Source: an uncultured Eubacteriales bacterium (lineage in GTDB: Bacteria > Bacillota > Clostridia > Oscillospirales > Oscillospiraceae). From it: 64,000 nt of DNA. The stretch is taken from contig ONSW01000010.1 in NCBI GenBank assembly GCA_900320595.1, positions 22,347 to 86,346 of the forward strand. The letters are read 5' to 3'. The notes under the pieces are model-generated. The model did no database searches. It was given only the letters and a program-made list of their open reading frames with translations, and had not been told where the DNA came from. Below are positions 3,650 to 63,803 of the stretch, piece after piece; the first letter of the stretch is position 1; the number at the start of each line of letters is the position of its first letter. A program made the translations under genes and the position numbers.

Positions 3650-3692
3650 TGATAAGATATCTGTTTTTCACTGATAATCGGGAGGTCCTGAT

Positions 3693-5929: not shown

Positions 5930-5963
5930 TCTGCCCCTGCCGGCTTTCCATCCAAACAAGCGC

Positions 5964-5997
5964 AAAGATCCGTCCGGGTGCCCGGACGGATCTTTTT
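5964..5997 (+). terminator. Terminator of the sugar importer operon
   Basis: Stem AAAGATCCGTCCGGG / CCCGGACGGATCTTT with a short loop, followed by a T run. Confidence 0.85.
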
Positions 5998-6110
5998 TCT
6001 TCACAAAATATTCACAGCACCTTTATGTTCACTTTAGGATTGCCCGGTATCATAACGCCAGACAAAGCAAGAAAGCCTTTGTGATCCCATGATAAAGTGA
6101 GGGAACAGCT

Positions 6111-8063
6111 ATGAAGAACAAAAAGCTCCTTTCCATCCTCCTCGCGCTCACCCTGGCGTTTTCCGCCGTGGGCTGCGGCGCCGCGGGCGGCGGCTCGGTC
6201 GACAAAAGTCTGACCGCTGACGCCTCCGACACCGAAGAGACGTCCGTCAGCGACGCCGTCTCGTCCTCGCTCGAGGAGCTGTTTACCGGCCGCGATCTCA
6301 GCGGCAAGAGCGGTGAGGATATCGTCACCGTCACGCTCTTCGGCGACACCGCGAGCGCGGACGGCGCGGGCGTTACCGTCTCTGACGGGCTCGTCACGAT
6401 CACCGCGGACGGCGATTATCTGCTCAGCGGCAGCTTTACCGGCAGCATCGTGATCGACGCGGACGACACCGCCAAGATCCAGATCATCCTCTCCGATGCC
6501 GTGATCGAGAGCGAGGGGCAGGCGGCCATCGTCGCGCTGTGCGCCGACAAGGTGTTTCTGACACTTGCCGAGGGCACGGACAATTCCGTCTCCGCCACCG
6601 GCGAACTTGCACCCTTCGGCGAGGTGAACGCCGACGGCGCGATCTTCTCCAAGTGTGATCTGACCGTGAACGGCACGGGCAGTCTGAGCGTCACCTGCGC
6701 GGAGGGCCACGGCATCGTCTCGAAGGACGATCTGAAGATCGCCTCCGGCACGATCACGGTCGACGCGGCCAGGCAGGGCCTCTCCGGCAAGGACAGCGTC
6801 AGCATTGCCGACGGCACGATCTCGATCACGGCCGGCACCGACGCGATCCACTCCGAGAACGCGGATGACGCCGAAAAGGGCGCGGTCTCGATCCTCGGCG
6901 GCAGCATCGCAGCCGAGAGCGGCAGCGACGGCATCGACGCTACCGGCGCGGTTTCGATCGAGGGCGGCAGCCTGAATATCACCGCGGGCGGCGGCGCGGA
7001 CAGCGTCTCGCGCTATGCCTCCGGCCGGGGCGGCTGGGGAGAGAGCAGCTCCTCCTCTTCGAGCGGCGGCAAGGGCGTCAAAAGCGATGCGTCCGTCACG
7101 ATCAGCGGCGGTACGGTCGACATTGACAGCGCCGACGACGCGATCCACACCGACGGCGAAGTCACAATCTCGGGCGGCGCGCTCACGCTCAAAAGCGGCG
7201 ACGACGGCGTCCACGCCGACGCATCGCTTACGATCAGCGGCGGCAGCGTTACCGTCAGCGACAGCTATGAGGGACTGGAGGCGGCCGACATCGTGATCGA
7301 GGACGGCGAGATCTCCGTTACAGCTTCGGACGACGGGCTCAATGCCGCGGGCGGCAATGACGGCTCGAACGGCGGCGGCTGGTTCGGCGGCGATCCCTTT
7401 GCCGCGCAGGACGCCTCCATCACGATCTCCGGCGGCACGCTTACCGTCAACTCTGACGGCGACGGCATCGACTCCAACGGCGATCTCACCGTCAGCGGCG
7501 GCACGATCTTCGTCTCCGGCCCGACCAATTCCGGCAACGGCGCGCTCGACTATAACGGAAGCGGCGTCATCACCGGCGGCACGCTCATCGCGGCGGGCGC
7601 CTCCGGCATGGCCGAAAACTTCTCGAACGGCTCGACCCAGTGCAGCGTGCTCGTGAATTTCTCCTCGACCGTTTCGGCGGGCAGCGAGATCTGCGTCTAC
7701 GATGCCGCGGGCAAGCTGATCGCAAGCTATACCCCCGAAAAGAATTACCAGTGTGCGGTCATTTCCGCCCCCGAACTCGCGGTAGGCGAGACCTACACCG
7801 TCACCGCGGGCGGCGCGCAGCAGACCGTGACCCTCTCCTCGACCATTACCGGCGGCGGTATGGGCATGGGAGGCATGGGCGGTATGGGCGGCCACGGCGG
7901 TTTCGGCGGCGGTGGCGGCATGCAAGGCGACTGGGGCGGCGAGACAGACGGCGTGACCTCCGCCACACCCTCCGACGGCGGCCAGGGTGGTTTCGGTGAT
8001 CAGGGCGGCTTCGGCGGTCATGGCGGAATGGGAGGGCCCGGCGGCCACGGCGGCAGACCGTAA
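6111..8063 (+). CDS. Carbohydrate-binding beta-helix lipoprotein (Cthe_2159/DUF4353-like)
   Basis: Large surface lipoprotein of 650 residues with signal and lipobox AVGC (Cys22). The body is built of repeated units of the type ISGGxxxI and DDGxHAD, which fold as right-handed beta-helix turns. This pattern matches the Cthe_2159 family of polygalacturonate-binding proteins, annotated as carbohydrate-binding domain-containing proteins. The last 80 residues are extremely rich in Gly, Met and His. A small Ser/Gly linker (about 302-322) interrupts the helix. It is flanked by terminators, so it is monocistronic. The likely role is binding plant or host polysaccharide at the cell surface; enzymatic activity is not indicated. 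Confidence 0.75.
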   Translation: MKNKKLLSILLALTLAFSAVGCGAAGGGSVDKSLTADASDTEETSVSDAVSSSLEELFTGRDLSGKSGEDIVTVTLFGDTASADGAGVTVSDGLVTITADGDYLLSGSFTGSIVIDADDTAKIQIILSDAVIESEGQAAIVALCADKVFLTLAEGTDNSVSATGELAPFGEVNADGAIFSKCDLTVNGTGSLSVTCAEGHGIVSKDDLKIASGTITVDAARQGLSGKDSVSIADGTISITAGTDAIHSENADDAEKGAVSILGGSIAAESGSDGIDATGAVSIEGGSLNITAGGGADSVSRYASGRGGWGESSSSSSSGGKGVKSDASVTISGGTVDIDSADDAIHTDGEVTISGGALTLKSGDDGVHADASLTISGGSVTVSDSYEGLEAADIVIEDGEISVTASDDGLNAAGGNDGSNGGGWFGGDPFAAQDASITISGGTLTVNSDGDGIDSNGDLTVSGGTIFVSGPTNSGNGALDYNGSGVITGGTLIAAGASGMAENFSNGSTQCSVLVNFSSTVSAGSEICVYDAAGKLIASYTPEKNYQCAVISAPELAVGETYTVTAGGAQQTVTLSSTITGGGMGMGGMGGMGGHGGFGGGGGMQGDWGGETDGVTSATPSDGGQGGFGDQGGFGGHGGMGGPGGHGGRP

Positions 8064-8065
8064 AA

Positions 8066-8097
8066 AAGAATGGGAAGCGGAGCTTCCCATTCTTTTT
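8066..8097 (+). terminator. Terminator of the beta-helix lipoprotein gene
   Basis: Stem AAGAATGGGAAGC / GCTTCCCATTCTT followed by a short T run. Confidence 0.8.
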
Positions 8098-8123
8098 AGA
8101 TCTTAGACTTTAGTTTTTAGCTT

Positions 8124-8165
8124 AAAAGAGGCAGTGAAAACCATCGGTTTTCACTGCCTCTTTTT
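8124..8165 (-). terminator. Terminator of the rpsP-khpA unit (possibly bidirectional)
   Basis: A long stem (AGAGGCAGTGAAAACC with GGTTTTCACTGCCTCT, 3-nt loop) lies 12 bp beyond the khpA stop codon. It has an A run on one side and a T run on the other, so it can act on both strands. Confidence 0.8.
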
Positions 8166-8177
8166 CTGCCCAAGGGA

Positions 8178-8408
8178 TCAGTCCATGATCTCCACAGAGA
8201 CCTTTTTGCCCTTCCTCTGGGCGACTGCGCGCATCAGGATGCGGATCTGCTTGACGATCCGGCCCTGACGGCCGATGACCTTGCCCATGTCGCCGTCGGC
8301 AACGCGGACCTCGAAGATCGTCTCGCCGTCGACTTTGCGCTCGGTCACAGAAACCTCGTCGGGATGATCGACCAGGCTCTGTACAAGATAGGTCAGAAGT
8401 TCTTTCAC
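8178..8408 (-). CDS. khpA: KH-domain RNA-binding protein KhpA
   Basis: Small RNA-binding protein of 76 residues made of one KH domain with the GKVIGRQGR loop near residues 39-47. KhpA (YlqC) binds RNA with KhpB and influences cell length in Firmicutes. The gene uses a GTG start behind GAGGAG and lies 17 bp after rpsP, the conserved neighbour. The usual rimM-trmD-rplS genes do not follow; a terminator does. Confidence 0.88.
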   Translation of the reverse strand: MKELLTYLVQSLVDHPDEVSVTERKVDGETIFEVRVADGDMGKVIGRQGRIVKQIRILMRAVAQRKGKKVSVEIMD

Positions 8409-8425
8409 AATTGATCGCTCCTCAA

Positions 8426-8662
8426 TTACGCTTCGATCTTCTTGAGAAGACCGCGAACGGTATCGGTGGGCTGAGCGCCCTGGGAAACCCAGTACTTCAC
8501 GCGCTCAACGTCGAGATTGAGCTTGTTGCCTTCCGCCATCGGATCGTAGGTACCCAGCTCCTCGATGAAGCGGCCGTCACGCGGGGAGCGGGAATCGGCG
8601 ACAACAACACGATAGTAAGGAGCCTTCTTGGCGCCCATTCTGCGAAGTCTGATTTTGACCAT
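8426..8662 (-). CDS. rpsP: 30S ribosomal protein S16
   Basis: Component of the small ribosomal subunit, 78 residues. The N-terminus [10 protein letters not shown] followed by [11 protein letters not shown] is characteristic of S16. GGAGG lies 10 bp upstream of the ATG. It lies between ffh and khpA in the order usual for Firmicutes, although a palindromic insert separates it from ffh. Confidence 0.95.
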
Positions 8663-8736
8663 GTATATTCACCTCCATACATTTTTCTGCAAGTTCAAAC
8701 TATATTACAAACACTGTTTCAGTGCCGTAACCTGAA

Positions 8737-8775
8737 TTAAAAACCGAAGCCGCCGAGCCCGCCGGGGCCGCCCTC
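8737..8775 (-). pseudogene. Duplicated 3'-end remnant of ffh
   Basis: Read on the minus strand this encodes GGPGGLGGFGF and a stop, almost the same tail as the intact Ffh (GGFPGLGGFGF and a stop) 150 bp upstream. Nothing else of ffh is present. It is separated from the intact gene end by a palindromic insert. Confidence 0.65.
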
Positions 8776-8895
8776 GTCAGAAGAAACTCGCTGCGTTCCG
8801 TTTTTACGGCTTTTTCAAAATCCGTAAAAACTGCACATTCGCTCCTTCCTTCTTCCTCTCCGATTCAAACCCACTTCGTTGGGCTTTGAATCGGT
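8776..8895. repeat. Palindromic insert behind ffh (family shared with the 28.7 kb insert)
   Basis: The roughly 120-bp insert holds two hairpins. One (8862-8894) pairs CCGATTCAAA with TTTGAATCGG around CCCACTTCGTTGGG. The other (8778-8855) pairs AGAAGAAA-side with TTCTTC-side sequence around CGTTTTTACGG / CCGTAAAAACTG. On the minus strand its start (AAGCCC..GGGTTTGA) and its end (TTCTGACG) resemble the insert at 28732-28850. It lies between the intact ffh end and a duplicated ffh tail. Confidence 0.6.
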
Positions 8896-10266
8896 TTAGA
8901 AACCAAATCCGCCGAGACCGGGGAAACCTCCCATGCCGCCCATTCTGCCGAGCTTTTTCTGCATCTTCTTCATGTTCTTGCTCGACAGCTGCTTCATCAT
9001 CTGCTGCATGGCTTCGAACTGCTTGATCAGGCGGTTGACGTCCACGACCTGCACGCCGGAGCCCGCCGCGATGCGCTTTTTGCGGCTGGAGTTGAGCAGG
9101 GCGGGGTTCTCGCGCTCTGCCGGGGTCATCGAAAGGATGATCGCCTCCTGACGCGACATCAGCTTGTCGTCGATCTTGGCGTTCTTCAGCGCACCGGCGT
9201 TCATCCCGGGGATCATCGAGGCGATGCTTTCAAGGTCGCCCATGTTTTTCAGCTGGCCCATCTGCTCGAGATAGTCGGTCAGCGTAAAGCGGTTGGCGCG
9301 CAGCCGCTCGGCCGCCTCCAGCGCTTTTTTCTCGTCAAAGCTCTGCTCGGCCTTTTCAATCAGCGTCAGCACGTCGCCCATGCCCAAGATACGGGAGGCC
9401 ATGCGGTCGGGGTGGAAGGGCTCGATCATGTCAAGCTTTTCGCCCACGCCGATAAACTTGATCGGCTTGCCCGTCGCGGCGCGGATCGACAGAGCGGCGC
9501 CGCCTCTCGCGTCGCCGTCGAGCTTGGTCAGCATCACGCCCGTCACGCCCAGCGCCTCGTCAAAGGCGGTCGCGGCGTTCACGGCATCCTGACCGGTCAT
9601 CGCGTCGACAACAAGCAGGATCTCGGCCGGCTCGACCGCGTCGCGGATGTTCTTCAGCTCGTCCATCAGCTGCTCGTCGATGTGCAGACGGCCCGCCGTG
9701 TCGAGGAACACCAGATCGTTACCGTGGCGCTTGGCATGCTCGATGGCGGCCTTCGCGATGTCCACGGGGTTCGTCTGGCCCATCTGAAACACGGGCAGAT
9801 CCAGCTGCGCGCCGACGGTCTCGAGCTGTCGGATGGCGGCCGGACGGTAGATGTCGCAGGCGACCAGCAGCGGGCGCTTGCCGGACTTGCGCATATAGGC
9901 GGCGAGCTTGGCGCCGTTGGTCGTTTTGCCCGCGCCCTGCAGGCCGACGAGCATCACGACGCTCGGCGATTTCGAGGAGATGTTGAGCTTCTGGTTGGCC
10001 CCGCCCATGAGCGTGCACAGCTCTTCGTTGACGATCTTGATGACCATCTGCGCGGGGGAGAGGGATTCAAGGACATCGGCGCCGCTGGCGCGCTCGGTCA
10101 CGGACTTGGTAAAGTCCTTGACGACCTTATAGCTGACGTCCGCCTCCAGGAGGGCCATGCGGACCTCGCGCATCGCTTCCTTCACGTCGGCGGTCGTGAG
10201 ACGGCCTTTGCCGCGCAGGCGCTTGAACGCTGCATTCAGTTTTTCCGATAAGCTTTCAAATGCCAT
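8896..10266 (-). CDS. ffh: Signal recognition particle GTPase Ffh
   Basis: Protein subunit of the signal recognition particle, 456 residues, which binds signal peptides emerging from the ribosome and hands them to FtsY. The N and G domains show the P-loop GLQGAGKTT (about 108), DTAGR (about 189) and TKLDGDARGG (about 248). The C-terminal M domain is methionine-rich and ends in a Gly-rich tail. It follows ylxM with 3 bp between them, the standard arrangement. The tail coding sequence is duplicated downstream (8737-8775). Confidence 0.96.
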   Translation of the reverse strand: MAFESLSEKLNAAFKRLRGKGRLTTADVKEAMREVRMALLEADVSYKVVKDFTKSVTERASGADVLESLSPAQMVIKIVNEELCTLMGGANQKLNISSKSPSVVMLVGLQGAGKTTNGAKLAAYMRKSGKRPLLVACDIYRPAAIRQLETVGAQLDLPVFQMGQTNPVDIAKAAIEHAKRHGNDLVFLDTAGRLHIDEQLMDELKNIRDAVEPAEILLVVDAMTGQDAVNAATAFDEALGVTGVMLTKLDGDARGGAALSIRAATGKPIKFIGVGEKLDMIEPFHPDRMASRILGMGDVLTLIEKAEQSFDEKKALEAAERLRANRFTLTDYLEQMGQLKNMGDLESIASMIPGMNAGALKNAKIDDKLMSRQEAIILSMTPAERENPALLNSSRKKRIAAGSGVQVVDVNRLIKQFEAMQQMMKQLSSKNMKKMQKKLGRMGGMGGFPGLGGFGF

Positions 10267-10269
10267 GGT

Positions 10270-10629
10270 TTATCCTCTCTCAAGCAGGGCCTTCAGCCCG
10301 TCCGACAGCTCGTTCGCGGCGGCACGCGCCTTCTCGTCAAGGGGGAGGGAAAGCAGGCCTTCCGCCTTGTCGTGCAGGCGTTCGAGCGAACGCTGCGTTT
10401 CGGAAAAGCGGCGGACAAGACCGGTTTTCTCCTCAATCTCCTCCAGCGCGGCGACCGCGCGGCGGACGTTGTCCCAAACGCCCTGGCGGGAGATGCCGCA
10501 CTGCTCGGCGATCTCGGCGAGGGAAAGATCCTCGTTGAAATACAGCTCGCAGGTCTCGCGCTGCTTGTCCGTCAGGAGCTGACCGTAGAAATCCAGCAGC
10601 AGGCTTTGCATCACTCTGTCCTCAGCCAT
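10270..10629 (-). CDS. ylxM: YlxM-type putative helix-turn-helix protein
   Basis: A 119-residue sigma-70 region-4-like protein containing LTDKQRETCELYF and an HTH (SLAEIAEQCGISRQGVWDNV). Its family is encoded next to ffh and is thought to affect SRP assembly or expression. The start was placed at the ATG preceded by AGGAGGT; the frame is open further upstream but only through promoter DNA. It is the first gene of the ylxM-ffh unit. Confidence 0.9.
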   Translation of the reverse strand: MAEDRVMQSLLLDFYGQLLTDKQRETCELYFNEDLSLAEIAEQCGISRQGVWDNVRRAVAALEEIEEKTGLVRRFSETQRSLERLHDKAEGLLSLPLDEKARAAANELSDGLKALLERG

Positions 10630-10666
10630 GTTGCCGCACCTCCTGTCAAGCAGAATACCTTTGCAG

Positions 10667-10695
10667 AATATACCAGAGAATCCGGCCGCTGTCAA
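10667..10695 (-). promoter_or_regulatory. Sigma-A promoter of ylxM-ffh
   Basis: On the minus strand TTGACA (10690-10695) and TATATT (10667-10672) are separated by 17 bp, a near-consensus promoter 38 bp upstream of the ylxM start. Confidence 0.8.
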
Positions 10696-51603: not shown

Positions 51604-52350
51604 TCACTCGTTCTCCATCATCTTTTTCAGCTCGCGCGCCTCGGCCTCGACGTCCTTCTTCATCTGGCGGACGGTGTCGTGGTGCTCGACCTCGGCGCGG
51701 ATGCGGTCCTTGCGTCTCTCACGCTCGACGTCGTGCAACTCCAGCTTTTCATCGGCGGCCTTTTTGACCTCCTTCGCCTCGGCGCGGACCTGCTTTTTCA
51801 GCTCGCCTAGATCGTGGCGGCTCTGACGGACGGCGTCCTTGAGCTCGGATTTGATTTCGTGTTCCATCTGCTTATAGTCTTTCATTTTCTTTTCCTCCTG
51901 TTCTTTGATGCGGCGATAAAACGTGTTGGGCTTCAGTTCAAGCAGTGCCATAGCCTGGCGGGCGTTGAGCTCGCCGCCCTTCCAGCGTGCGACGACAGAT
52001 TCAAACAGCTCGTCGTCAATGACGATAGGCTTGCGCCCCTTGTACTTGCCTTCGCTTTTGGCACGCTCGATGCCGCTGCGCCGCCGGGCACTTCGGCCGG
52101 ACTGCTCCAGATCGTTCAGCGCACGGCAAAGGGAAAAGAGGGAAGCGCCCTGCTCAGGACGCGTGTCGATCGCTTCCTTGCTGCAGACAAGCTCGCCGCC
52201 CTTGTCTGCCAGTTTTACGGCCGCCTCGAGGAAAGCCTTTGCACTGTCCGAAACGGCGGAAATGCTGTCGATGCGGACACAGTCGCCCGGCCGGATCGCT
52301 TCGATCGCCTCGGTAAAGGCTTTTTGATCCTGTGCGTAAACGGTTTCCAT
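51604..52350 (-). CDS. Catalytically degenerate serine-recombinase-like protein with coiled-coil tail
   Basis: A 248-residue protein. Residues about 1-105 follow the resolvase/invertase catalytic domain (SLFSLCRALNDLEQS, RRSGIERAKSEGKYKGRKP), but the N-terminal strand with the catalytic Ser (YxRVS) is absent. The DRLxR motif is replaced by SISAVSDSAKAFL. Residues about 110-150 form the Hin-type HTH (LNARQAMALLELKPNTFYRRI). The last 95 residues are a highly charged helix (EIKSELKDAV, then KKQVRAEAKEVKKAA), not found in normal recombinases. It is probably a DNA-binding structural or regulatory protein derived from a recombinase. It has its own strong promoter. Confidence 0.78.
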   Translation of the reverse strand: METVYAQDQKAFTEAIEAIRPGDCVRIDSISAVSDSAKAFLEAAVKLADKGGELVCSKEAIDTRPEQGASLFSLCRALNDLEQSGRSARRRSGIERAKSEGKYKGRKPIVIDDELFESVVARWKGGELNARQAMALLELKPNTFYRRIKEQEEKKMKDYKQMEHEIKSELKDAVRQSRHDLGELKKQVRAEAKEVKKAADEKLELHDVERERRKDRIRAEVEHHDTVRQMKKDVEAEARELKKMMENE

Positions 52351-52545: not shown

Positions 52546-52728
52546 TAATCTTTCTTAAATTGCCCCTTTCAGGTACAAAATATATTGCAATGACAGGAGG
52601 AAAATGATAAGATAGCATACTAGAATAACAGCGCGTTTCTTCCCTTTTCATCGGGGGTGACGCGCATCAGACCGCCGTGCCGATGGGCGCGGCGCGGATA
52701 GAACAGTTCCTGTTTGGAGGAAACAGAA

Positions 52729-55700
52729 GTGAAGATGAAAAAAGGCATCTGCCTCCTTTTATGCGCCATACTGCTTGTCGGTCTGATGCCGGCCGGCGCC
52801 CTTGCGGCAAACGGCCCCGGCATTGCGGGCGACGTATGCGCGTCGATCTGCCTCACGGGCGGGATGGACAAAACGATCTACTCCGCCGACAGCGCGATCG
52901 AGCAGCAGATCCTCTATCCGGGCGAGCTGACCGAGGCGCGTTATCTGCTGCCCGACGGCGTGAGCTATGACGCCGTGAGCAACACGCTCACGCTCACGGA
53001 CTTCTCCGCCCCCTCCGCCGTGCTTTCGCTGACGATGATGGGCAGCGACTTCAAGATCCGCCTGAGCGGCAGCAGCTCCCTCGCGGCCATCCGTTCGGAA
53101 TCGATGGGCTGGGGCGGCAGCATCACCTTCACCGGCGACGGCGCGCTTGATGTGACGAACTATTCCGAGGCCGGGATCACGGTCAACGCCGGCGGCGCGG
53201 CCGATTTTGTCCGCGTCGAGCCGCAGGTGCGCCTGACGGTCACGGGCGCCGGAAACGCGATCGTTGTTGCCGGGACGAGTTATGGCGACGGCGCGATCAG
53301 CTTTGACACGGCATCGCCCAACGTGCGCGCCGAAGACAGCTCCTATGCGCTCACCGATCAGCTGACGAGCGACGGCGCCCTGATCGACGTCTGCACCCGC
53401 TCCGGGGAGGAGGGCCTCTTCGGTCTGGAAGCCGACATCGATCCCGAGACGGAAAGCCTTGTTTACAACGTCTATCAGCTCGGCGAGAGGGACGGCGCGG
53501 GCGCCTACAGCGCGGCGCTCATCGAGGAGAAGATCGCGGATATCTCCGCGTTCGGCCAGGTCTATACGCCTCACGAATGGGCGCTTTATGACGTCAATAC
53601 GGGCGCGCCCGTCTCCCAGGTACGGCTGGCCCGCTTTTCCGTCAGCGCGCAGGCCGCCGATGAAAACGGCAGTGTCAGCGTGTCCCAGACGGCCGTCGGC
53701 CGCGGCGGCAGCGCCGTCGTCACCGTGCAGCCCAACGACGGCTATAAGCTTGCTTCTCTCACCGTAAACGGCGTCGAGGTGACGCCGACGAACGGCAGCT
53801 ATGCGATCGGCGGCATCATTGCCGACCAGAGCGTCACAGCCTCCTTTGCCGAAGCCGCGCCCGCGCGGATCGCGATCACGGCTCCGGAGACGACGGACTT
53901 TACCGTGCCCGGCGTCAGCGAGGACGATTTTGTCAGCGTACCCTTTGTCGCCACTGTCACCGACGGCGCGGACGACCCTGTCGGCGCAACGGTCGAGTGG
54001 CGCGTCGAGCCTGAACTCAGCGGGATCTCGATCCGCCAGGACGGCTGCGTCGTCATCACGGCGGGCGCCAAGGACATCGTCGGGGACGAGCATCTCTCCT
54101 TTACGGTAACGGCTGCGGTGCAGGACACCGAGCTTTCGGATGACAGCGGCAGCTTTACCGTCGCGCTCGCCGAGAGAAAAGCGACCGCCATTTCCATGAC
54201 GCGCGAGGGCGAAGCGTTAGGCGGCAGCGATACCGTCACGATCCCCGCCGAGGGGACCGCCACGGCGAGCTACGGCGCCGTCGTGACCGACCAGTACGGC
54301 GAGGAAATGGACGAGGAGATCGCCTGGGTCGCCGGGGACTGGCCTGTCGGCGTCAGCCGCCAGGACAACACGCTCTCGGTCACGAGCGAGGCGAAGGACG
54401 GCAGCACGCTCGACGTCACGGCCTCGGTCGCGTCAGACAGCACGATCAAGGACACGATCACCGTGACCTTTGTGGAAAAGACCGAGGAGCCGGAGCCGAC
54501 CGGCGAGGGCGGGGAAGGCGAGGAAACGGGCGACGGCGACCAGGCAAGGCGTGCGCCTCTGTTGGGGGCACCCGGTCCGACCCTGACGACGGCAACGGGC
54601 GGCGAGGGCCTTACGATCGTCTGGCCGACGGTCACGCTCGCGGACGACCCGGTCTACGGCATCACCTGGGGCGAACTGGTCACGCTTGGCGAGGACGGCT
54701 CTGTCACAAAGGATGGCGAGCCCGTCAAGGGCAGCTTCACCGTCAAGGCGGAGAGCGCGATCCCCAATATCAGCGACAGCTATACGGTCCTCTTCACCTA
54801 TACCGAGGACGAGGTTGAAAAGACGGCCGAGAGCAGCGAGCAGACCGTTACGCTTTCTCGCAAAGCACTTACAGCGGATATGGTCACGCTTTCCCCCTCC
54901 GAGATGCCCTATACCGGCGCGGCGTGTGAGCCGGCCGTCTCACTCAAGGACGGCGATCGGTCGCTTGAAAGCGGCAAGGACTATACCCTTGCGGGCTATG
55001 CCGACAACATCGAGATCGGCAAGGACACGGCCAAGGTAACGGTCACGGGCGCGGGCAACTATACCGGCAGCGTGGAAAAGAGCTTTTCCATCACGGCGAT
55101 CCCCGGCAGCGCGGTGACCGAGTTCATCACCTCCCGCAAGCCGGAGGACGAGGGTATCGAGCCGACGGTCGAGGTGAAAAACGGCGACGCGACGCTCAAG
55201 AAGGGGCAGGACTACGATGTCTCGTTCCTCTATGACATTCCCTCGAAGAGCGGCACCGCCACGATCACGCTCAAGGGCACTTACAGCGGCACGATCGTTT
55301 CGCGCTTCGACCTGCCAAACTATCTTATCACCGAGGGCGCGGGCAGCAGCTGGAACAAGGGCTCGTCGAGCGAGCTCGGCTTTACCGCGAACGGCGCGCT
55401 CGGCAAGTTCACCGAACTGACCGTGGACGGCAAGACGGTCGACCCGTCCTACTACTCCACCGCCTCCGGCAGCACGATCGTCAAGCTCAAGCCCACTTAC
55501 TTAAAGAGCCTTTCCGCCGGCAAGCACATCATCGGCGTTGCCTACAAGGACGGCAAGGCGCTTGCGATCTTCTCCGTTACGGACGTCAACCGCCGCGGCG
55601 TCGCGACCGGCGACGACAATGACATGACCCTTTGGATCGCGATCCTGGGCGTGAGTGTGATCGGTCTGGCCGTGCTGTGCGTGGCGCTGGCCGTCACGAG

Positions 55701-55746
55701 CCGGAAGCGGGCAAAACGCAAAAAGAAGAAAACGACCCGCAAATAA
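52729..55746 (+). CDS. Large membrane-anchored surface protein with Ig-like and B-repeat-like domains
   Basis: A 1005-residue exported protein: signal peptide (cleavage near GALAANG), an N-terminal beta-rich domain, a B-repeat-like unit (SAQAADENGSVSVSQTAV to SVTASFAEA, about 303-380), two or three Ig-like units to about 590, a Thr/Glu/Gly linker, then MBG-like modules (YTGAACEPAVSLKDG, VTVTGAGNYTGSVEKSFSI). The C-terminus has one membrane segment (about 966-988) and a Lys/Arg tail; there is no LPxTG before it. The GTG start lies eight bases behind GGAGG. It is likely an adhesin or surface scaffold. Confidence 0.75.
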   Translation: MKMKKGICLLLCAILLVGLMPAGALAANGPGIAGDVCASICLTGGMDKTIYSADSAIEQQILYPGELTEARYLLPDGVSYDAVSNTLTLTDFSAPSAVLSLTMMGSDFKIRLSGSSSLAAIRSESMGWGGSITFTGDGALDVTNYSEAGITVNAGGAADFVRVEPQVRLTVTGAGNAIVVAGTSYGDGAISFDTASPNVRAEDSSYALTDQLTSDGALIDVCTRSGEEGLFGLEADIDPETESLVYNVYQLGERDGAGAYSAALIEEKIADISAFGQVYTPHEWALYDVNTGAPVSQVRLARFSVSAQAADENGSVSVSQTAVGRGGSAVVTVQPNDGYKLASLTVNGVEVTPTNGSYAIGGIIADQSVTASFAEAAPARIAITAPETTDFTVPGVSEDDFVSVPFVATVTDGADDPVGATVEWRVEPELSGISIRQDGCVVITAGAKDIVGDEHLSFTVTAAVQDTELSDDSGSFTVALAERKATAISMTREGEALGGSDTVTIPAEGTATASYGAVVTDQYGEEMDEEIAWVAGDWPVGVSRQDNTLSVTSEAKDGSTLDVTASVASDSTIKDTITVTFVEKTEEPEPTGEGGEGEETGDGDQARRAPLLGAPGPTLTTATGGEGLTIVWPTVTLADDPVYGITWGELVTLGEDGSVTKDGEPVKGSFTVKAESAIPNISDSYTVLFTYTEDEVEKTAESSEQTVTLSRKALTADMVTLSPSEMPYTGAACEPAVSLKDGDRSLESGKDYTLAGYADNIEIGKDTAKVTVTGAGNYTGSVEKSFSITAIPGSAVTEFITSRKPEDEGIEPTVEVKNGDATLKKGQDYDVSFLYDIPSKSGTATITLKGTYSGTIVSRFDLPNYLITEGAGSSWNKGSSSELGFTANGALGKFTELTVDGKTVDPSYYSTASGSTIVKLKPTYLKSLSAGKHIIGVAYKDGKALAIFSVTDVNRRGVATGDDNDMTLWIAILGVSVIGLAVLCVALAVTSRKRAKRKKKKTTRK

Positions 55747-57141: not shown

Positions 57142-58332
57142 TTACATGATGGGGATCTTGATCTTGAGATCCGTCAGCGGCCAGGAGGAGCAGGCGTGGA
57201 ACCAGCCCATCTCCTTGTCCATGCGCCGTCTCCCGTCGCCGATCGGGGAGACGAAGATGTCGCCCGAGAGCAGATGGCTGCGGCAGAAGCCGCACTCGCC
57301 GTTGCGGCAGTGGGTGTCGATCGCAATGCCCGCGCGCTCGAGCGCGACAGCGACCGGCTCACTGGCCTTGGCGTCGATGACGTCCTCATGGATGCCGCGC
57401 ACGACCGTGATCTTAAAGGTCTTTTCCTCGGTGCCCTTCGGGTAGCCAGGCAGGGTCGAGACGTCTGCGGGATTGTTCACCACGTCGTGGCGGAAGCGGC
57501 GGACAGGCACGCCCATCTCGTCGAGCGCCTTCTTGACAAAGCGGAACATCGGCAGCGGACCGCAGAACATATAGGTGCAGTTGGGCGTCGAGTACTTCTC
57601 GATGATCTCGCGGGTGATAAAGCCCTTTTCGCCGTCCCAGTCGGGCTCGTCGGAGAGGACGTGGACGACCTTGACGTCGGGGCAGTCGGCCTCGATCTTG
57701 GCGAGCTCGTCCTTGAGAACGATGTCGTTTGCCTTGACCGAGCCGTAGAGGATCGTCAGTTTGACGCCCTTGAGCTTGCCGTAGGCGATCTCCTTGGCCA
57801 TCGAGTGGAACGGCGTGATGCCGCTGCCGCCGGCCAGCGCCACAAGCTCCTTCGAGTCGCGCATCGGCTCATAGTAGAAGAAGCCGAAGGGAAGAGCACC
57901 CTGCAGCTCGTCGCCGACCTTGACATTCTCAAAGAGATAGTCCGGCACGAGATAGGGCACGTTGCGGCGCACCGTGATCTCGAAGAAGGGGTGCTCGCCG
58001 CGTGCCTCAAAGGGGGCGGAGGAGATCGTGTAGGGGCGGGAGAGAACGCTCTCGCCGATCTTCAGACGGAAGTTGACGTACTGGCCGCTTTGGAACACGG
58101 GGATGTGGCCGTCCGCGCTCTCAAAGCGGAAGATGCGGGAGGTGGGGGAGGCCTCGCGGATATCGACGACCTTAAAGGTCATGTGCTCCGGATGGAGCTT
58201 GTCCGCCATCTCGCGGATCGGGTCCCTCGGATCGGGGATCGGAGAACCCGCGGCAAAGTTGGCTTCTCTGAGCTTGGTGACGCGGGAGGCTCCGCCGACG
58301 TCCTTCAAAAAGCCTTTGACCTTAATACTCAT
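57142..58332 (-). CDS. Ferredoxin-NAD(P) reductase-type flavoprotein with C-terminal 2Fe-2S domain
   Basis: A 396-residue electron-transfer protein. The FAD domain has RPYTISSAP (about 98-106), the NAD(P) domain has GGSGITPFHSM (about 167) and CGPLPM (about 256). The C-terminal ferredoxin domain binds a plant-type 2Fe-2S cluster through CRNGECGFC (about 341-349) and a later Cys in WFHACSS. It would take electrons from NAD(P)H and pass them to a partner, here most plausibly the flavoprotein encoded 3 bp upstream. An N-terminal 50-residue extension is present. Last gene of the minus-strand redox unit. Confidence 0.85.
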   Translation of the reverse strand: MSIKVKGFLKDVGGASRVTKLREANFAAGSPIPDPRDPIREMADKLHPEHMTFKVVDIREASPTSRIFRFESADGHIPVFQSGQYVNFRLKIGESVLSRPYTISSAPFEARGEHPFFEITVRRNVPYLVPDYLFENVKVGDELQGALPFGFFYYEPMRDSKELVALAGGSGITPFHSMAKEIAYGKLKGVKLTILYGSVKANDIVLKDELAKIEADCPDVKVVHVLSDEPDWDGEKGFITREIIEKYSTPNCTYMFCGPLPMFRFVKKALDEMGVPVRRFRHDVVNNPADVSTLPGYPKGTEEKTFKITVVRGIHEDVIDAKASEPVAVALERAGIAIDTHCRNGECGFCRSHLLSGDIFVSPIGDGRRRMDKEMGWFHACSSWPLTDLKIKIPIM

Positions 58333-58335
58333 TTC

Positions 58336-59883
58336 TCACAGCCTCCCTTTCTTTTCCATGTCTTCCTTGACGCCCTTGGCCGCGGCGCGGCCGTTGGTGA
58401 TCTGCGGGCCCATGCCGTCGCCGCTCATGCCGTGAGCGCCGGCGAACTCGAGCCCCTCGATGAAGTGATCCTTCTCCTTCATCTGCAGACGGGCGACGGC
58501 GTGGTCCTCCATCGAGTGGAGATAGCCGTAGATGTTGCCCTTCCACGCACCGACATAGTGCGAAACGGTCATCGGGGTGGTGACTTCAAATTCGATGATC
58601 CTGTCGCGGAAGTCGACCTTGGTGACCTTCAGGCACTCTTCGATCATCTCGTTGGCAAGACGCCGCTTGAGATCGAAGTAGTCCTCCTCCTTGACGTCCT
58701 CAAAGGGCTTGGAGGGGACGAGCGCCGTGATCGAGAGCTGGGTGATGCCCTCGGGCAGCGTGGGGTTGGCGTAGTTGAGGCAGATCGTGGTGATGTAGTT
58801 GTACGGCTCGGTGATGTTCGCGTAGTTCTCCCAGATCTTGTTGGTGTCCATCGTCGTGCCGGAGAAGGTGGAATAATCGGTGATGCCGTTCTCCTCCGGG
58901 GTGCCCTCGATGAGCATGATGACGGAAACGGGGACGACGGAGAGCTTGCGGTTGTTGATCATGCGGATCGCGCCCTCGGGGACTTCGCTGAGCGGCTCGA
59001 TCATCTGGGTGTAGACGCGGTTGGGGTAGGCGCCGGAGATGACATAGTCGCAGTGGATCTCGTCGCCGCGCGCGGTGCGCACGCCGTAGACCTTGCCGTC
59101 GCGGACCAGGATCTTTTCGACTTCCTGGTTGAACTCGTACTGGGCGCCGTTCTCCTCGCACTTAGCCTGGAGCTTCATGCTCATCTCATGGCTGAAGCCG
59201 CGGCAGACATAGGAGCCGGTGAAGTAGTCGGCCATCAGGAAGGCGTAGATCGTAAAGGGCAGATCGTCCATGCGGTTGCCGACGTAGATCCAGTAGGGCG
59301 TCAGCATCTCAACGGCCTTCTTGGGCAGACCGAAGGTATCGATGACCTCGGTCGCGGTATAGCCGACAGTCTTGACGAAGTCGGGGTGCTTTAAAAGCAT
59401 CTGCACCTTGCTCATCGGGTGGACGGAGAGGTAGTTCATGCTGTCGTACACACGGCGGCAGAGCAGCATCAGCTCGTGCACCTTGTCATAGGTGCCGGGG
59501 CAGACCTCGTCGATCTCCTTGGCGACGGTGGTGTAGCTGTCGTCATAGTCGGGGTGCAGCACCTTGTCGATGCCGGAGTTCGGCAGCACGACGCGGTAGC
59601 ATTCGGGAACAGGGAGCCAGTCAATGTCCACGCCCATGTCGTCGAAGAACTGGCCGACCTTCAGGCGCTTGCCGGGCTGGCCGATGGACATCATTTCATG
59701 CAGCGTAGCCTCGATCTCAAAGCCGTTGCGCACAAAATCGGTGGCGAGACCGCCGGGCATGTTGTGCTTTTCAAGGATCAGAATGTCCTTGATGCCCCAG
59801 GCCTGCAGCTGCAGGCAGGCGGACATGCCGGCCAGTGCGCCGCCGATGATGACGACGTCGTAATGGTCTTTGTAAAATTTCAT
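58336..59883 (-). CDS. Phytoene-desaturase/retinol-saturase-like FAD oxidoreductase
   Basis: A 515-residue flavoprotein. The dinucleotide fold is YDVVIIGGALAGMSACLQL (about 8-26), with EKHNMPGG following, as in carotenoid desaturases and isomerases. The C-terminus FAGAHGMSGDGMGPQITNG holds the second FAD-contact motif. This superfamily includes desaturases, cis-trans isomerases and saturases. Set between a PUFA-isomerase-like gene and a reductase, a role in reducing or isomerising a conjugated double bond is plausible but inferred. GAAAGGAATA precedes the ATG. Confidence 0.78.
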   Translation of the reverse strand: MKFYKDHYDVVIIGGALAGMSACLQLQAWGIKDILILEKHNMPGGLATDFVRNGFEIEATLHEMMSIGQPGKRLKVGQFFDDMGVDIDWLPVPECYRVVLPNSGIDKVLHPDYDDSYTTVAKEIDEVCPGTYDKVHELMLLCRRVYDSMNYLSVHPMSKVQMLLKHPDFVKTVGYTATEVIDTFGLPKKAVEMLTPYWIYVGNRMDDLPFTIYAFLMADYFTGSYVCRGFSHEMSMKLQAKCEENGAQYEFNQEVEKILVRDGKVYGVRTARGDEIHCDYVISGAYPNRVYTQMIEPLSEVPEGAIRMINNRKLSVVPVSVIMLIEGTPEENGITDYSTFSGTTMDTNKIWENYANITEPYNYITTICLNYANPTLPEGITQLSITALVPSKPFEDVKEEDYFDLKRRLANEMIEECLKVTKVDFRDRIIEFEVTTPMTVSHYVGAWKGNIYGYLHSMEDHAVARLQMKEKDHFIEGLEFAGAHGMSGDGMGPQITNGRAAAKGVKEDMEKKGRL

Positions 59884-59900
59884 TCCGTATTCCTTTCAAA

Positions 59901-59927
59901 AAAGCGGGGCCGGCATAAGCCGGCCCC
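59901..59927 (-). terminator. Terminator-like attenuator within the redox unit
   Basis: On the minus strand GGGGCCGGC / GCCGGCCCC with a 4-nt loop is followed by GCTTTTTT. It lies between the isomerase-like gene and the saturase-like gene, so expression of the two downstream genes may be lower or conditional. Confidence 0.7.
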
Positions 59928-59938
59928 GAATCATCGGT

Positions 59939-61327
59939 TTAGAAGAATCTGTCAACCAGCTCGCGGGAGTACTCGGCAGTCTCGTCCATGTCGCCGAAGC
60001 TCATGACTTCGCCGGCATAGTAGGTGTCGTACTTGCCCTGCATCGCCTCGACCTTGTCATACCAGCCGGCGGCGTAGTCTTCGGTGAAGACATGCGGGAA
60101 GTAGTAGACGCTCCACTCGTTGATGACCTCTTCGGCCGGGTTGTGCATGATCTTGAGGTCGTCCTGAACCATCTGGCGGCACTCCTCGTAGGGGATCTCC
60201 TTCGAGTTCTTGTGCTTGCGCAGAGCATAGGTGGTGATGACCTGGTCGATCTGATCTCTCCAGCGGCGGTAGTAGACCATCAGGTGACCGAGCTTTTCGG
60301 GCTCCATGTTGTCAAAGACATAGTAGGAGATCTCCGGGTGATTCTCGGGCTTGGTGAGGAAGGCCTGGACGTCGTAGCGCTCGTAGTCGATCTTGGAGAA
60401 GAGCTCCTTCTCGTCGTCGCGGGCGTCGAAGTACTCGACCATGCCCTTCTGACCGTCGGCGCGCTTGCCCGGGATGTAGAGAGGAGCGGTGACGATGACC
60501 TTGTCAAACTCCTCGACCTCGCCGTTGACGGTGATGAAGACCTTGCCGTCGTGGCGCTCGACCTTCTCGATGTTGCTGTTCAGACGGGCGGGGTTCTTGA
60601 TGTGCTCGTTGAGCTGCTCCCAGATGTACTGGGTGCCTTCCTTCCAGGTCCAGAGGTTGACCTTGACGAAGTTCATGCAGGTCTGGTAGTCAAGGTACTT
60701 CAGAACATAGGCGGCGGGGATCTCGTCAAAGTAGCCGTAGCCGAAGGAGGTGAACGGTCCGATCCAGATCTTCTGAACCAGAGGAACGCCGTTCATTTCA
60801 CAGAACTTCTTGAACGGGAGGGCCAGATCCTTCAGGTTGGGGTTCACGCCCTCGACCTTTTCACGGCCCGGGGTAACGGCATAGCCGTCGTAACGACCCT
60901 CGGCAACGCCGCGGTGGCCGTTGACGTCATAGCCCTTGTACTTGGTCTCCAGCAGTTCGCCGAACTTCTTCAGCTGGCCCTTCATCTTGAGCATCCAGGG
61001 ATTCTTGATGATGTTGCCGAGCGTGCGGGCAAACGGCTCGATCACGTCGCCCTTGGCGTTCTTGTAGTTGCGGTTGAGCTGGGGACCGTCGTGGGTGATG
61101 CCGCAGAACTCTTCCACGTCATGAACAGCATAGTAGGAGGGAACGCCCATGATGGCGCCCATCTCATAGCGTCTGCCGTTGTAATGCGGGCTCCAGCACT
61201 TGCCGCCGACGCGGTCGTTGCGCTCGAAGATCACATAGTTTTCGTATCCTTTTTTCTCGAGATACATGCCGGCGGAAAGACCCGCGGGGCCGCCGCCGAT
61301 GATGGCGATGCGAATGTTCTTGTCCAT
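59939..61327 (-). CDS. PAI-like FAD-dependent polyunsaturated fatty acid double-bond isomerase
   Basis: A 462-residue flavoprotein: RIAIIGGGPAGLSAGMYLE (GxGxxG at 11-16), GGKCWSPHYNGRRYEMGAIM, VPSYYAV, then AAYVLKYLDYQT, and the C-terminal YYAGEVMSFGDMDETAEYS. From memory this pattern runs the whole length with the Propionibacterium (Cutibacterium) acnes linoleate isomerase PAI, which makes trans-10,cis-12 conjugated linoleate, including the GRRYEMGAIMGVPSY and YYFPHV segments. The reaction would shift a double bond of a free fatty acid without net redox change. It heads the minus-strand redox unit; GGAGGAAG precedes the ATG. Substrate assignment is by family only. Confidence 0.78.
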   Translation of the reverse strand: MDKNIRIAIIGGGPAGLSAGMYLEKKGYENYVIFERNDRVGGKCWSPHYNGRRYEMGAIMGVPSYYAVHDVEEFCGITHDGPQLNRNYKNAKGDVIEPFARTLGNIIKNPWMLKMKGQLKKFGELLETKYKGYDVNGHRGVAEGRYDGYAVTPGREKVEGVNPNLKDLALPFKKFCEMNGVPLVQKIWIGPFTSFGYGYFDEIPAAYVLKYLDYQTCMNFVKVNLWTWKEGTQYIWEQLNEHIKNPARLNSNIEKVERHDGKVFITVNGEVEEFDKVIVTAPLYIPGKRADGQKGMVEYFDARDDEKELFSKIDYERYDVQAFLTKPENHPEISYYVFDNMEPEKLGHLMVYYRRWRDQIDQVITTYALRKHKNSKEIPYEECRQMVQDDLKIMHNPAEEVINEWSVYYFPHVFTEDYAAGWYDKVEAMQGKYDTYYAGEVMSFGDMDETAEYSRELVDRFF

Positions 61328-61381
61328 GTTCTTCCTCCGTATTCAAATTTGGTTGAAGTCTGAAGTTTTTCAGATATAGTC

Positions 61382-61387
61382 ATTATA
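61382..61387 (-). promoter_or_regulatory. -10 box of the redox unit
   Basis: TATAAT on the minus strand, about 55 bp before the isomerase-like start. No good -35 is seen, so an activator may be needed. The shared 225-bp divergent region also contains the plus-strand promoter. Confidence 0.5.
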
Positions 61388-61517
61388 CAACACGCTCTGC
61401 AAAAAATCACTATATTTTTTTCCAAAACTGTCGAAATCTTTATCAGTTTTCACAAGGAAAAAAGATAATGAAGCCTGTTTCTTTGATAAAAGGCTTTCCT
61501 TGCCGCAAGGGATGTGG

Positions 61518-61523
61518 TATATT
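61518..61523 (+). promoter_or_regulatory. -10 box of the acyl-ligase operon
   Basis: TATATT preceded by GATGTGG lies 30 bp before the start codon. TTTCCT at 61495 is a weak -35 at 17-bp spacing. Confidence 0.45.
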
Positions 61524-61552
61524 GAGAAAAAAGGAATAATTGGAGGTGCCCC

Positions 61553-62896
61553 GTGCGATTTGACAGCTTTGACCATCTGCTCTCCCATTTCGCCCTGACG
61601 ACCCCCGACGCCCCCGCGCTGCGCTATGAAAAGACGACGCTCTCCTTCCGCGAACTCGACGAGACCGTCCGCAAACGCGCCGGGGAGCTGCGCGCGGGGG
61701 GCAAAAGCTGCATCGGCCTTCTCTGCGACGGCAGTCTCGACAACGTGATCGAGATCTTTGCCGCCTCTCTTGCCGGGCTGCAGCTGGTGCTGCTTGACGC
61801 CTCGCTGCCCTCGGACGTGCTCAAAAGCCTGATGCGCTATACCGACGTCGACCTGCTCTGGGGCGACGAGGAGCTGTGCGACGAGCTCTCCCTTGCCCTG
61901 ATGGCGGGCGTGAAGGACGGCGGCGGAAAGATCCTGTTCTTCACCTCCGGCACGACCGAGCGGGCCAAGGCCGTCGTGCTGACGGACCACAGCCTGTGCC
62001 AGAGCGCGTACAACGGCTCGGCCAAGCTGCCCCTCTCGCCGGATGACACGCTGCTGTGCATGCTGCCGCTGGGGCATGTGTTCGGCTTCGTCTGCGGCCT
62101 TCTCTGGGGCCTCAGCTGCGGCGCCTGCGTCGCGCTCGGCCGCGGGCCGCGGCATTATCTCGACGACTGCGACTTCTACCGCCCCACGGCCGTCTCCGTC
62201 GTGCCGCTGCTGCTGGGCTTTCTTGTCAAGCAGCGGTGCATCAATCCGGAGCTCAAGCTCGTGCTCGTCGGCGCGGGCGACTGCCCGCCGGCGCTGCTCC
62301 AGGCGGCCGGCGCGATGGGCATCCGCATCAGCTTTGGCTACGGGCTGACCGAGACGAGCTCCGGCGTCGCCATTTCCGTCTCGGGCGACCCCTATGCCAT
62401 GGAGATCTGTCCCGACGACACGATCACCCTTGCCGAGGACGGCGAGATCCTGATCGAGGCGCCGACCTGCATGATGCAGGGCTACTACAAGCGCCCCGAC
62501 GCGACGCGCGCCGTGCTGCAGAACGGCGTCTTCCACACCGGCGACCTCGGCCGCTTTGACGAGGAGGGCAAGCTCCACATCACCGGGCGGAAAAAAGACG
62601 TGCTCGTCCTGCCGGACGGCACCAAGATCTTCCTGCCGGAATATGAATCCGCGCTGATGCACGCGCTGGGACATACGGAGCTGGCCGTCACGCTGAAGAA
62701 CGACCGGCCGATCCTGGTCTTTTCCGGCGCGGCGGAGAAGGACCGGCTGCAGGAAAAGCTGCGCGAGGTGATGCGCACGCTGCCGCGCGGCCAGCAGATC
62801 GCGGACATCCTTTTGACAGACGAGCCGCTGCCGAGAACAGCAACGGGCAAAATTAAACGCTGGGAGCTCCAGCAGAAAGTGAGTGACAACACATGA
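61553..62896 (+). CDS. AMP-forming acyl-CoA/acyl-ACP ligase
   Basis: A 447-residue adenylate-forming enzyme. The P-loop ILFFTSGTTERAKAVVLT (about 128), GYGLTETSSG (about 261), HTGDLGRFDEEG (about 328) and the C-terminal catalytic Lys in TATGKIKRWE (about 435) are all present. At under 450 residues it is compact, close to DltA and fatty acyl-AMP ligases. The start is GTG behind TTGGAGG. It overlaps the acyl carrier protein gene (ATGA), so it probably loads an acid onto that protein. The substrate is likely a fatty acid given the adjacent genes. Confidence 0.85.
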   Translation: MRFDSFDHLLSHFALTTPDAPALRYEKTTLSFRELDETVRKRAGELRAGGKSCIGLLCDGSLDNVIEIFAASLAGLQLVLLDASLPSDVLKSLMRYTDVDLLWGDEELCDELSLALMAGVKDGGGKILFFTSGTTERAKAVVLTDHSLCQSAYNGSAKLPLSPDDTLLCMLPLGHVFGFVCGLLWGLSCGACVALGRGPRHYLDDCDFYRPTAVSVVPLLLGFLVKQRCINPELKLVLVGAGDCPPALLQAAGAMGIRISFGYGLTETSSGVAISVSGDPYAMEICPDDTITLAEDGEILIEAPTCMMQGYYKRPDATRAVLQNGVFHTGDLGRFDEEGKLHITGRKKDVLVLPDGTKIFLPEYESALMHALGHTELAVTLKNDRPILVFSGAAEKDRLQEKLREVMRTLPRGQQIADILLTDEPLPRTATGKIKRWELQQKVSDNT

Positions 62897-63138
62897 CCAG
62901 ACAGGAAGTATTGGAACAGACCAAAAAGGTGATTTACGACTGCTTCCCCGACATGGCGGATATTGATCTGCAGGAGGACAGTGTGATCAACACCGAGACG
63001 GCGATCGACTCGATGGGCTTTGTGCTGGTGATCTGCAAGCTCGAGGCGCTCTTTGACGTGCGCATCCCCGAGCGGCAGTGGCAGAAGCTGCAGACGCTCG
63101 GCGACGTGGTGGACGCGATCTGCAAGAGACTCAAATGA
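62893..63138 (+). CDS. Acyl carrier protein
   Basis: An 81-residue carrier protein. The phosphopantetheine Ser is Ser40 in TAIDSMGF, a DSM variant of the usual DSL motif. The four-helix pattern ends LGDVVDAICKRLK. Both ends overlap neighbours by ATGA: the ligase upstream and the thioesterase downstream. It is a dedicated carrier for this pathway rather than the housekeeping AcpP, judged by its context and divergent sequence. Confidence 0.88.
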   Translation: MTRQEVLEQTKKVIYDCFPDMADIDLQEDSVINTETAIDSMGFVLVICKLEALFDVRIPERQWQKLQTLGDVVDAICKRLK

Positions 63139-63803
63139 GCGTCTATTCCGAGGAGATCCTGCTGCGCAGCAAGGACGTGGACATGTACCGCCGTCTGCGC
63201 ACATCGGAGCTGTTCCGCATGCTGCAGGAGGCGTCGATCCGCCATACCGAGCAGCTTGGCATGGGACGCGACAAAACGCTCGACCGCGGCATCCTCTGGG
63301 TGCTGCTGATGCAGCGCGCCGAGATCGTCCGCATGCCGGAATACGACGAGCGCATCGTGCTCAAAAGCTGGCCGGGCAAGACGATGCATCTGCTCTTCCC
63401 GCGCTATTACAGTCTGGAGACCGCGGCGGGCGAGCCGCTTTTGAAGGCAAGCGCGCTGTGGAGCCTTGTCGACGAGAAAACGCGCAAGGTCGTCTTTCCG
63501 GAAAAGTACGGCGTGGTGATCGAGGGCGCCGTGACAGGCGAGGAAATCGCGATGCCGGGCGGCGTTGCGAAGAAGGAGACCACATGCGAGCGGGACTTTA
63601 CCGTTCCGTACAGCTTCGTCGATCTCAACGGGCACATGAACAACACCCGCTACTTCGACCTCTGCGAGGACTGCGTCGGCGCGGCCGCCGCGGGGCGCGC
63701 TCCGCTGGGGCGCGGAAGGGGAGTCGTATTTCCTCTCCGGCGAGACCGAGCGCAGCGTGTTCCGCATGCGGCTCGACTATACGGGCGAAGCGGAATAAAA
63801 TAA
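63135..63803 (+). CDS. FatA-type acyl-ACP thioesterase with a frameshifted C-terminus
   Basis: A 222-residue double-hotdog thioesterase. The first hotdog begins VDMYRRLRTSELFRMLQEAS; the second has the FatA motif LNGHMNNTRYFD (about 175). After AAAAGRA the frame turns non-native (PLGRGRGVVFPLRR). The native ending ESYFLSGETERSVFRMRLDY is readable in another frame and stops at 63798. About 20 residues are missing at the junction near 63692-63714, where GGGGCGCG occurs twice. The enzyme would release fatty acids from the carrier; as written it may be damaged, or the assembly is wrong here. Confidence 0.75.
   Translation: MSVYSEEILLRSKDVDMYRRLRTSELFRMLQEASIRHTEQLGMGRDKTLDRGILWVLLMQRAEIVRMPEYDERIVLKSWPGKTMHLLFPRYYSLETAAGEPLLKASALWSLVDEKTRKVVFPEKYGVVIEGAVTGEEIAMPGGVAKKETTCERDFTVPYSFVDLNGHMNNTRYFDLCEDCVGAAAAGRAPLGRGRGVVFPLRRDRAQRVPHAARLYGRSGIK

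Follow-up and report, generated by a model that had tools for sequence, protein, structure and literature searches.

The window analyzed here, a 64,000-nucleotide stretch of contig ONSW01000010.1 from an uncultured member of the Oscillospiraceae, ends where the contig ends; the draft genome to which it belongs comprises 2.07 Mb in 107 contigs. It carries six genes, designated A to F, in two divergent operons. On the minus strand, C (59939..61327) encodes a 462-amino-acid (aa) protein assigned by phmmer and Foldseek to the PAI-type polyunsaturated fatty acid (PUFA) double-bond isomerases. It is followed by B (58336..59883; 515 aa), a flavoprotein with the CrtI/CRTISO fold that is proposed to reduce (saturate) conjugated fatty acids, and by A (57142..58332; 396 aa), an NAD(P)H reductase whose Pfam domains comprise FAD, NAD, and C-terminal plant-type 2Fe-2S modules. 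On the plus strand, D (61553..62896; 447 aa; PF00501) is an AMP-forming acyl ligase, proposed to be the fatty acyl-acyl carrier protein (ACP) synthetase for E. The latter (62893..63138; PF00550) is an ACP with a DSM phosphopantetheine motif, and F (63135..63803; PF01643) is a FatA-type acyl-ACP thioesterase that is frameshifted at about residue 188. D and E overlap by 4 bases, as do E and F, and B and A are separated by 3 bases. A first-pass annotation had described an isomerase-like protein, a flavoprotein, and a reductase on one strand, with a ligase, an ACP, and a thioesterase lying divergently; all six open reading frames (ORFs) were recovered close to their original positions in an ORF check of the window, and their domains agree with that description. 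Judged from sequence, the locus, which is shared by many ruminant-gut bacteria, most of them uncultured, is a good candidate for an enzyme set that turns dietary PUFA into trans and saturated fat.

C is a full-length homologue of PAI with the three-domain PAI fold. In phmmer searches it aligns over its full length with the Propionibacterium acnes enzyme (PDB entry 2b9w) at an E value of 1.6e-134, with 221 of 416 residues identical (53%); the next PDB entry appears at 9.4e-11. An AlphaFold model of C, for which 27 of the 55 dereplicated relatives were used (predicted local distance difference test score [pLDDT], 84.4), has 2b9w as its best Foldseek match (7.3e-56; template modeling [TM] scores, 0.88/0.96; root mean square deviation, 1.6). 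The next matches, mostly amine and nicotine oxidases, score 4.8e-21 and weaker, which puts PAI ahead by 35 orders of magnitude (E value) and rules out that C is an unrelated amine oxidase. The PAI-like character originally ascribed to the whole of C is thus borne out both by the alignment and by the fold. In PAI catalysis, the oxidized FAD transiently takes up a hydride. Residues R88, F168, and F193 of PAI correspond to R86, F195, and F220 of C, which are unchanged across the 27 relatives; R88 and F193 (and F168) are substrate-gate residues of PAI. Relative to PAI, C contains an insertion of approximately 22 residues around positions 140 to 165.

B belongs to the Amino_oxidase clan of Pfam and falls under every curated family cutoff, with CrtI-type models scoring best. 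Its top NCBIfam match is crtI_fam (1.6e-25; 89.7 bits versus a cutoff of 238.1), and it also matches carot_isom (TIGR02730) at 7.9e-21 (74.4 bits versus 586.9). Since the crtI_fam score is below the cutoff, B is, on sequence grounds, no orthodox CrtI. Its AlphaFold model (44 sequences; pLDDT, 89.5) shows a CrtI-type fold with an FAD-binding N terminus; the closest structure is the carotenoid desaturase 4rep (TM scores, 0.79/0.83), followed by nicotine and monoamine oxidases and CrtI. The earlier comparison of B to phytoene desaturase and retinol saturase therefore holds for the fold, with unrelated amine oxidases ranking lower, although the curated CrtI-family cutoff is not reached. The description of A as a flavin reductase carrying a 2Fe-2S cluster also stands: PF00970 (FAD_binding_6), PF00175 (NAD_binding_1), and the C-terminal PF00111 (Fer2) all score above their Pfam cutoffs. 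The nearest solved relative of A is the benzoate dioxygenase reductase 1krh, and the NCBIfam cutoffs of the named equivalogs BenC and PaaE are not reached.

In the divergent operon, D matches the AMP-binding domain PF00501 at 7.5e-40, with CoA ligases as its best relatives in the PDB. E scores above the Pfam cutoff for PF00550 (PP-binding) and is distinct from the other ACP of the genome, the second PP-binding protein, which sits at C88. F contains an N-terminal Acyl-ACP_TE domain (PF01643; 1.5e-18; 67.3 bits versus a cutoff of 23.7) and is a relative of PDB entry 2own. It tracks its intact relatives (236 aa) up to approximately residue 188. Their residues 209 to 235 lie in a different frame, at window positions 63700 to 63780, whereas some 20 residues are without a counterpart. 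This frameshift, close to the contig end, may be an assembly error or a real loss. Pfam thus confirms every family of the ligase, ACP, and FatA-type thioesterase module proposed in the first-pass annotation, but F is broken in the assembly and its start had to be corrected to 63135.

Scanning named genomes with C identified 301 relatives, of which the best 80 were kept; the counts of testable loci given here are out of these 80, and a locus is called testable if it includes enough contig to show the gene in question. Of 60 loci testable for the whole set, 58 have all six genes together, the exceptions being L050 and L084. B lies directly downstream of C in 73/73 testable loci, A lies downstream of C-B in 69/69, and D-E-F is divergent in 68/70. 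Among the 69 loci in which both ORFs are intact, B and A share a 4-base overlap in 52 and are spaced by -4 to 4 bases in all 69; overlaps of 4 bases are also found for D-E (43/70 loci) and E-F (52/72 loci), with the start codons in these counts picked by script. In the family of UBA6987 (titled Lachnospiraceae), represented by a sample of 397 genomes, B is found at ≤1e-60 in 14, with C adjoining it in 8 of these 14, and other gene orders occur: D-E-F-C-B-A (L192 and L193) and C-B-A-D-E-F (L194).

Phylogenetic profiles were drawn from 300 genomes belonging to the same family as the window. Of these, 17 have C, as 15 close copies (79 to 100% identical) and two distant ones (G014 and G281; 53 to 55%), near which none of the other five genes is found. 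D is present in 16 genomes, namely, all 15 with a close C and one of the 285 others, G276, in which the contig stops 355 bases past D, before C could follow. In two genomes (G109 and G264), D-E-F is present on a separate contig from C. The Fisher test for co-occurrence of C and D gives a p value of 2e-24, which ignores genome kinship and omits the two distant copies of C (G014 and G281). Together with the 58/60 testable loci, this co-occurrence rules out chance adjacency of the six genes; the two operons, whose joint conservation had been put forward as a check, are indeed conserved together, with D accompanying a close C in 15/15 genomes. B is more widespread, at ≤1e-40 in 37 of the 300 genomes, and copies of 68 to 74% identity occur in six genomes that have neither C nor D, as five intact B-A pairs and one broken B (G298). 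From this profile it follows that D-E-F is tied to C and that B-A is able to stand alone. In L164 to L168, B-A pairs with 68 to 74% identity to the window's B have neither isomerase nor carrier genes nearby; L165 has, convergent to the pair, genes for two short-chain dehydrogenases and a CaiB-like gene, identified by eye. More distant B-A pairs (29 to 38% identity) without C are seen in other loci.

The six genes fall into three units of variation: C, B-A, and D-E-F. Covariation of pairwise identities is strong between B and A (r = 0.95) and within D-E-F (0.76 to 0.88) but weak for C with the rest (0.37 to 0.61). In L049, L059, and L060, the B-A pair has been swapped as a cassette, because C and D are 90 to 93% and 71 to 74% identical to those of the window, whereas B and A are only 53 to 57% identical. 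C has the highest median pairwise identity (84%, versus 51 to 63% for the other genes). Selection explains much of this conservation, because in distant pairs C has diverged at fourfold-degenerate sites almost as far as its neighbors have (for example, window versus L110: C, 82% identical with a fourfold divergence of 0.65; B, 58% and 0.75). In such pairs, recent transfer as the sole cause is unsupported. In closer pairs, fourfold divergence is lower in C than in D (0.37 versus 0.68 for L109 and L120; 0.17 versus 0.44 for L049 and L059), so that gene exchange or codon constraint may add to the conservation. Loci from genomes titled Coriobacteriaceae (L062 and L103) and Sphaerochaetaceae (L110) may reflect transfer across phyla, if these titles of metagenome-assembled genomes (MAGs) do not result from misbinning. 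The G+C content at third codon positions of the genes follows each locus. Plasmid carriage finds no support in PLSDB, where B and C match 30 and 3 records, respectively, all at <60% identity, with no close relative among them.

The gap between C and B in the window contains a terminator-like hairpin (59905..59928, minus strand), with a stem of 10 G-C pairs followed by a T run. The 81 loci provide 72 C-B gaps, of which the 66 with at least 30 bases were scored; terminator-like hairpins of differing sequence are found in 47 of them, versus 3 to 9 in ten first-order Markov resamplings and 7 in 66 D-C intergenic regions. Six loci have C-B gaps of <30 bases, with no room for a hairpin. We propose that this element is an attenuator, predicted to hold expression of the isomerase above that of the reductase. 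The divergent promoter region between C and D (61328..61552) contains recurring promoter-like words. Across the 66 D-C regions, TGTATAAT (as ATTATACA, on either strand) is found in 37, versus 1.6 in shuffles, and ATATAGTG in 14, versus 0.6. No shared operator palindrome was found in these regions, the recurring elements being promoter-like words only. An arrangement with ATATAGTG 5' of the TGTATAAT box ahead of C recurs among relatives and is possibly a regulator site.

The titles of the best 80 of the 301 relatives name a ruminant host in 31 cases and a rumen uncultured genome (RUG; PMC9005536) in 36, with 13 uninformative; none of these 80 titles names a human source. Biohydrogenation is a known bacterial activity of the rumen (PMC4478896, PMC9533493), and this setting, with its 31 ruminant titles and 36 RUGs, is one of several points that favor reading the locus as a dedicated biohydrogenation system for dietary PUFA, to which we assign a probability of about 0.58. 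The other points are the PAI homology, fold, and gate residues of C, the polyene-acting fold of B and its constant closeness to and covariation with A, the joint conservation of the six genes in several gene orders, and the presence of D with a close C even where the two are unlinked. C would shift a double bond of free linoleate or linolenate by PAI chemistry to give a conjugated diene, most likely of the trans-10,cis-12 type that its homologue PAI produces. Electrons from NAD(P)H would pass through the FAD and the 2Fe-2S cluster of A to the FAD of B, and B would use them in reducing the conjugated diene to a trans monoene. D would activate the acyl chain and load it onto E, and F would release it, so that toxic or reduced chains might be held, processed, and expelled rather than entering membrane lipid. 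Because D-E-F tracks C and not B-A, the carrier may handle the isomerase product or PUFA itself, either keeping toxic chains off the membranes or presenting them to B. All of these activities, the substrate of B, the path of electrons from A to B, and the roles along D-E-F are what we infer from the gene set, as is the order in which chains would be isomerized, reduced, activated, and released.

Several observations weigh against this scheme. The occurrence of B-A without C or D in six of the 300 genomes (B, 68 to 74% identical) means that the substrate of B need not be the product of C. Enzymes of the CrtI fold can catalyze desaturation or isomerization rather than saturation (PMC3382138). 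If C acts on free acids, a cycle of ACP loading and release is not obviously needed, and the regiochemistry of C may differ from that of PAI because of the approximately 22 residues that PAI lacks. D, whose best PDB relatives are CoA ligases, is not separable from a CoA ligase by its sequence, and the copy of F in the window's genome is itself frameshifted.

Among the other explanations, the best survivor, itself unlikely, is that C and D-E-F serve membrane-lipid adaptation: exogenous PUFA would be isomerized, loaded onto ACP, and used for phospholipids, with F acting as an overflow valve and reduction being secondary. This would fit the way D tracks C and not B-A, including the six genomes with a close B that lack C and D, but neighbor clustering reveals no acyltransferase in the conserved set, and the operon's own dedicated thioesterase speaks for release. 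It is similarly improbable that the B-A pair acts generally to reduce some other kind of lipid (isoprenoid, quinone, sterol, or bile acid-like) and stands beside C through a shared unsaturated-lipid stress response. The pairs without C, both the close ones in six genomes and the distant ones, and the exchange of B-A relative to C in L049, L059, and L060 are consistent with such a role; however, B follows C in all 73 testable loci and also in the other gene orders, and each swap leaves some B-A pair at the site. Least probable is that B is a CRTISO-like, reduced-FAD-dependent cis-trans isomerase of conjugated fatty acids, with A only keeping the flavin reduced and no net hydrogenation: CRTISO does require reduced FAD without a net redox change (PMC3382138), and the carot_isom match lies near that of crtI_fam, but its 74 bits are far below the cutoff of 587, and the one-to-one, translationally coupled reductase (4-base overlap in 52/69 loci) suggests a stoichiometric demand for electrons. 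This tie to a dedicated reductase is the sole ground for naming B a saturase and not an isomerase. A polyketide or carotenoid biosynthetic cluster is ruled against by the absence of a ketosynthase and a phytoene synthase from the conserved neighbor clusters, which come from a crude grouping of ORFs that also brings antisense ORFs together.

An occasional seventh gene encodes an NADPH-type Fe-S flavoprotein (GltD-like; 900 to 940 aa; best NCBIfam match, PRK12771, 433 bits versus a cutoff of 516), which follows A in 16 of 56 testable loci and may represent an alternative electron supply. It also adjoins the distant copies of C in G014 and G281. In a phylum-wide sample of 398 genomes, PAI-like proteins at 1e-30 are found in only four others (161 to 179 bits), and the Fe-S flavoprotein adjoins these genes (29 to 31% identical to C) in three of the four. 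It is absent from the window locus, and the same genome has four long homologues elsewhere, one of which adjoins HypA and a second acyl-ACP thioesterase. Along with the rumen setting, the C-B hairpin, and the independent B-A pair, this gene goes beyond what the first-pass annotation had covered. A separate cluster in other Bacillota (L232, positions 3381 to 10689, annotated with Pfam in this locus only; also L233 and L234) combines a helix-turn-helix (HTH) protein, a PAI-like protein (29 to 31% identical to C), the GltD-like Fe-S flavoprotein, a DUF5692 membrane protein, HypA, and HypB; L231 has the HTH protein, a PAI-like protein, and a similar membrane protein without the Fe-S flavoprotein. 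HypA/HypB-like nickel chaperone genes also accompany the Fe-S flavoprotein in L161 (9475 to 13268; G000:C45), L039 (4379 to 10405), and L197 (8529 to 14830), where the partner is PAI, B, or an acyl-ACP thioesterase and no hydrogenase is seen in these stretches. Elsewhere in the window, positions 52714 to 55746 encode a probable surface protein (1,010 aa) with an InlB-type B-repeat domain, and positions 51604 to 52350 (minus strand) encode a short protein that combines an N-terminal resolvase domain with a long charged tail.

Rumen biohydrogenation determines which fats reach milk and meat, and its trans-10 branch has been linked to milk fat depression (PMC10019597). For the proposed biohydrogenation system, a compact, conserved, and transferable set of six genes, whose proposed order of reactions lends itself to testing, offers concrete genes to express, inhibit, and track in metatranscriptomes. 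If the proposal is true, B would represent a new class of reductases for fatty acid double bonds, and the locus would be a better marker than the isomerase gene alone. More tentatively, and with considerable doubt, the locus could be the main genetic basis of non-Butyrivibrio rumen biohydrogenation, including the trans-10 pathway: a semimobile three-module system that uncultured Oscillospiraceae share with other bacteria of ruminants and in which the attenuator would set the isomerase above the reductase, B-A would form a new class of fatty acid saturases, and saturation would take place on a dedicated ACP. Searches of the open-access literature revealed neither a description of the six-gene locus nor one of a CrtI-type fatty acid saturase, which is weak evidence of novelty because subscription papers mostly lie outside that literature.

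Among known systems, PAI of Propionibacterium (Cutibacterium) acnes (2b9w) is the closest to C, with full-length homology, the same fold, and the gate residues kept. However, C has its approximately 22 extra residues and is accompanied by reductase and carrier genes, whereas PAI is reportedly a stand-alone isomerase. The linoleate isomerase and conjugated linoleic acid (CLA) reductase of Butyrivibrio fibrisolvens resemble the proposed pathway in their order of reactions; these enzymes (Kepler and Tove; Hughes 1982; Fukuda 2007) are said to yield the cis-9,trans-11 isomer and vaccenate, in contrast to the trans-10,cis-12 type of product expected from C. A pathway that isomerizes and then reduces the conjugated diene has been described for rumen bacteria (PMC2654759, PMC4478896), and one study found no linoleate isomerase gene in the Butyrivibrio genomes it examined (PMC6249431). 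The CLA-HY/DH/DC/ER system of Lactobacillus plantarum is likewise a multienzyme route to PUFA saturation in gut bacteria, but its hydratase, short-chain dehydrogenase/reductase, decarboxylase, and enone reductase (PMC13365329) belong to families absent, by Pfam, among the six proteins. PAI genes in rumen MAGs have already been published: a 2023 study found an isomerase gene in 23 of 228 MAGs, of the PAI type in 7, assigned to Lachnospiraceae, Oscillospiraceae, and unclassified lineages, and one was correlated with t10,c12-18:2 in milk (PMC10019597). That study searched for isomerases and lipases only, and its available portion mentions neither B-A nor D-E-F nor the locus. Finally, CrtI, CRTISO, and CrtN share the fold of B, but B lies far under the cutoffs of their families and, in these anaerobes, is paired with a dedicated 2Fe-2S reductase.

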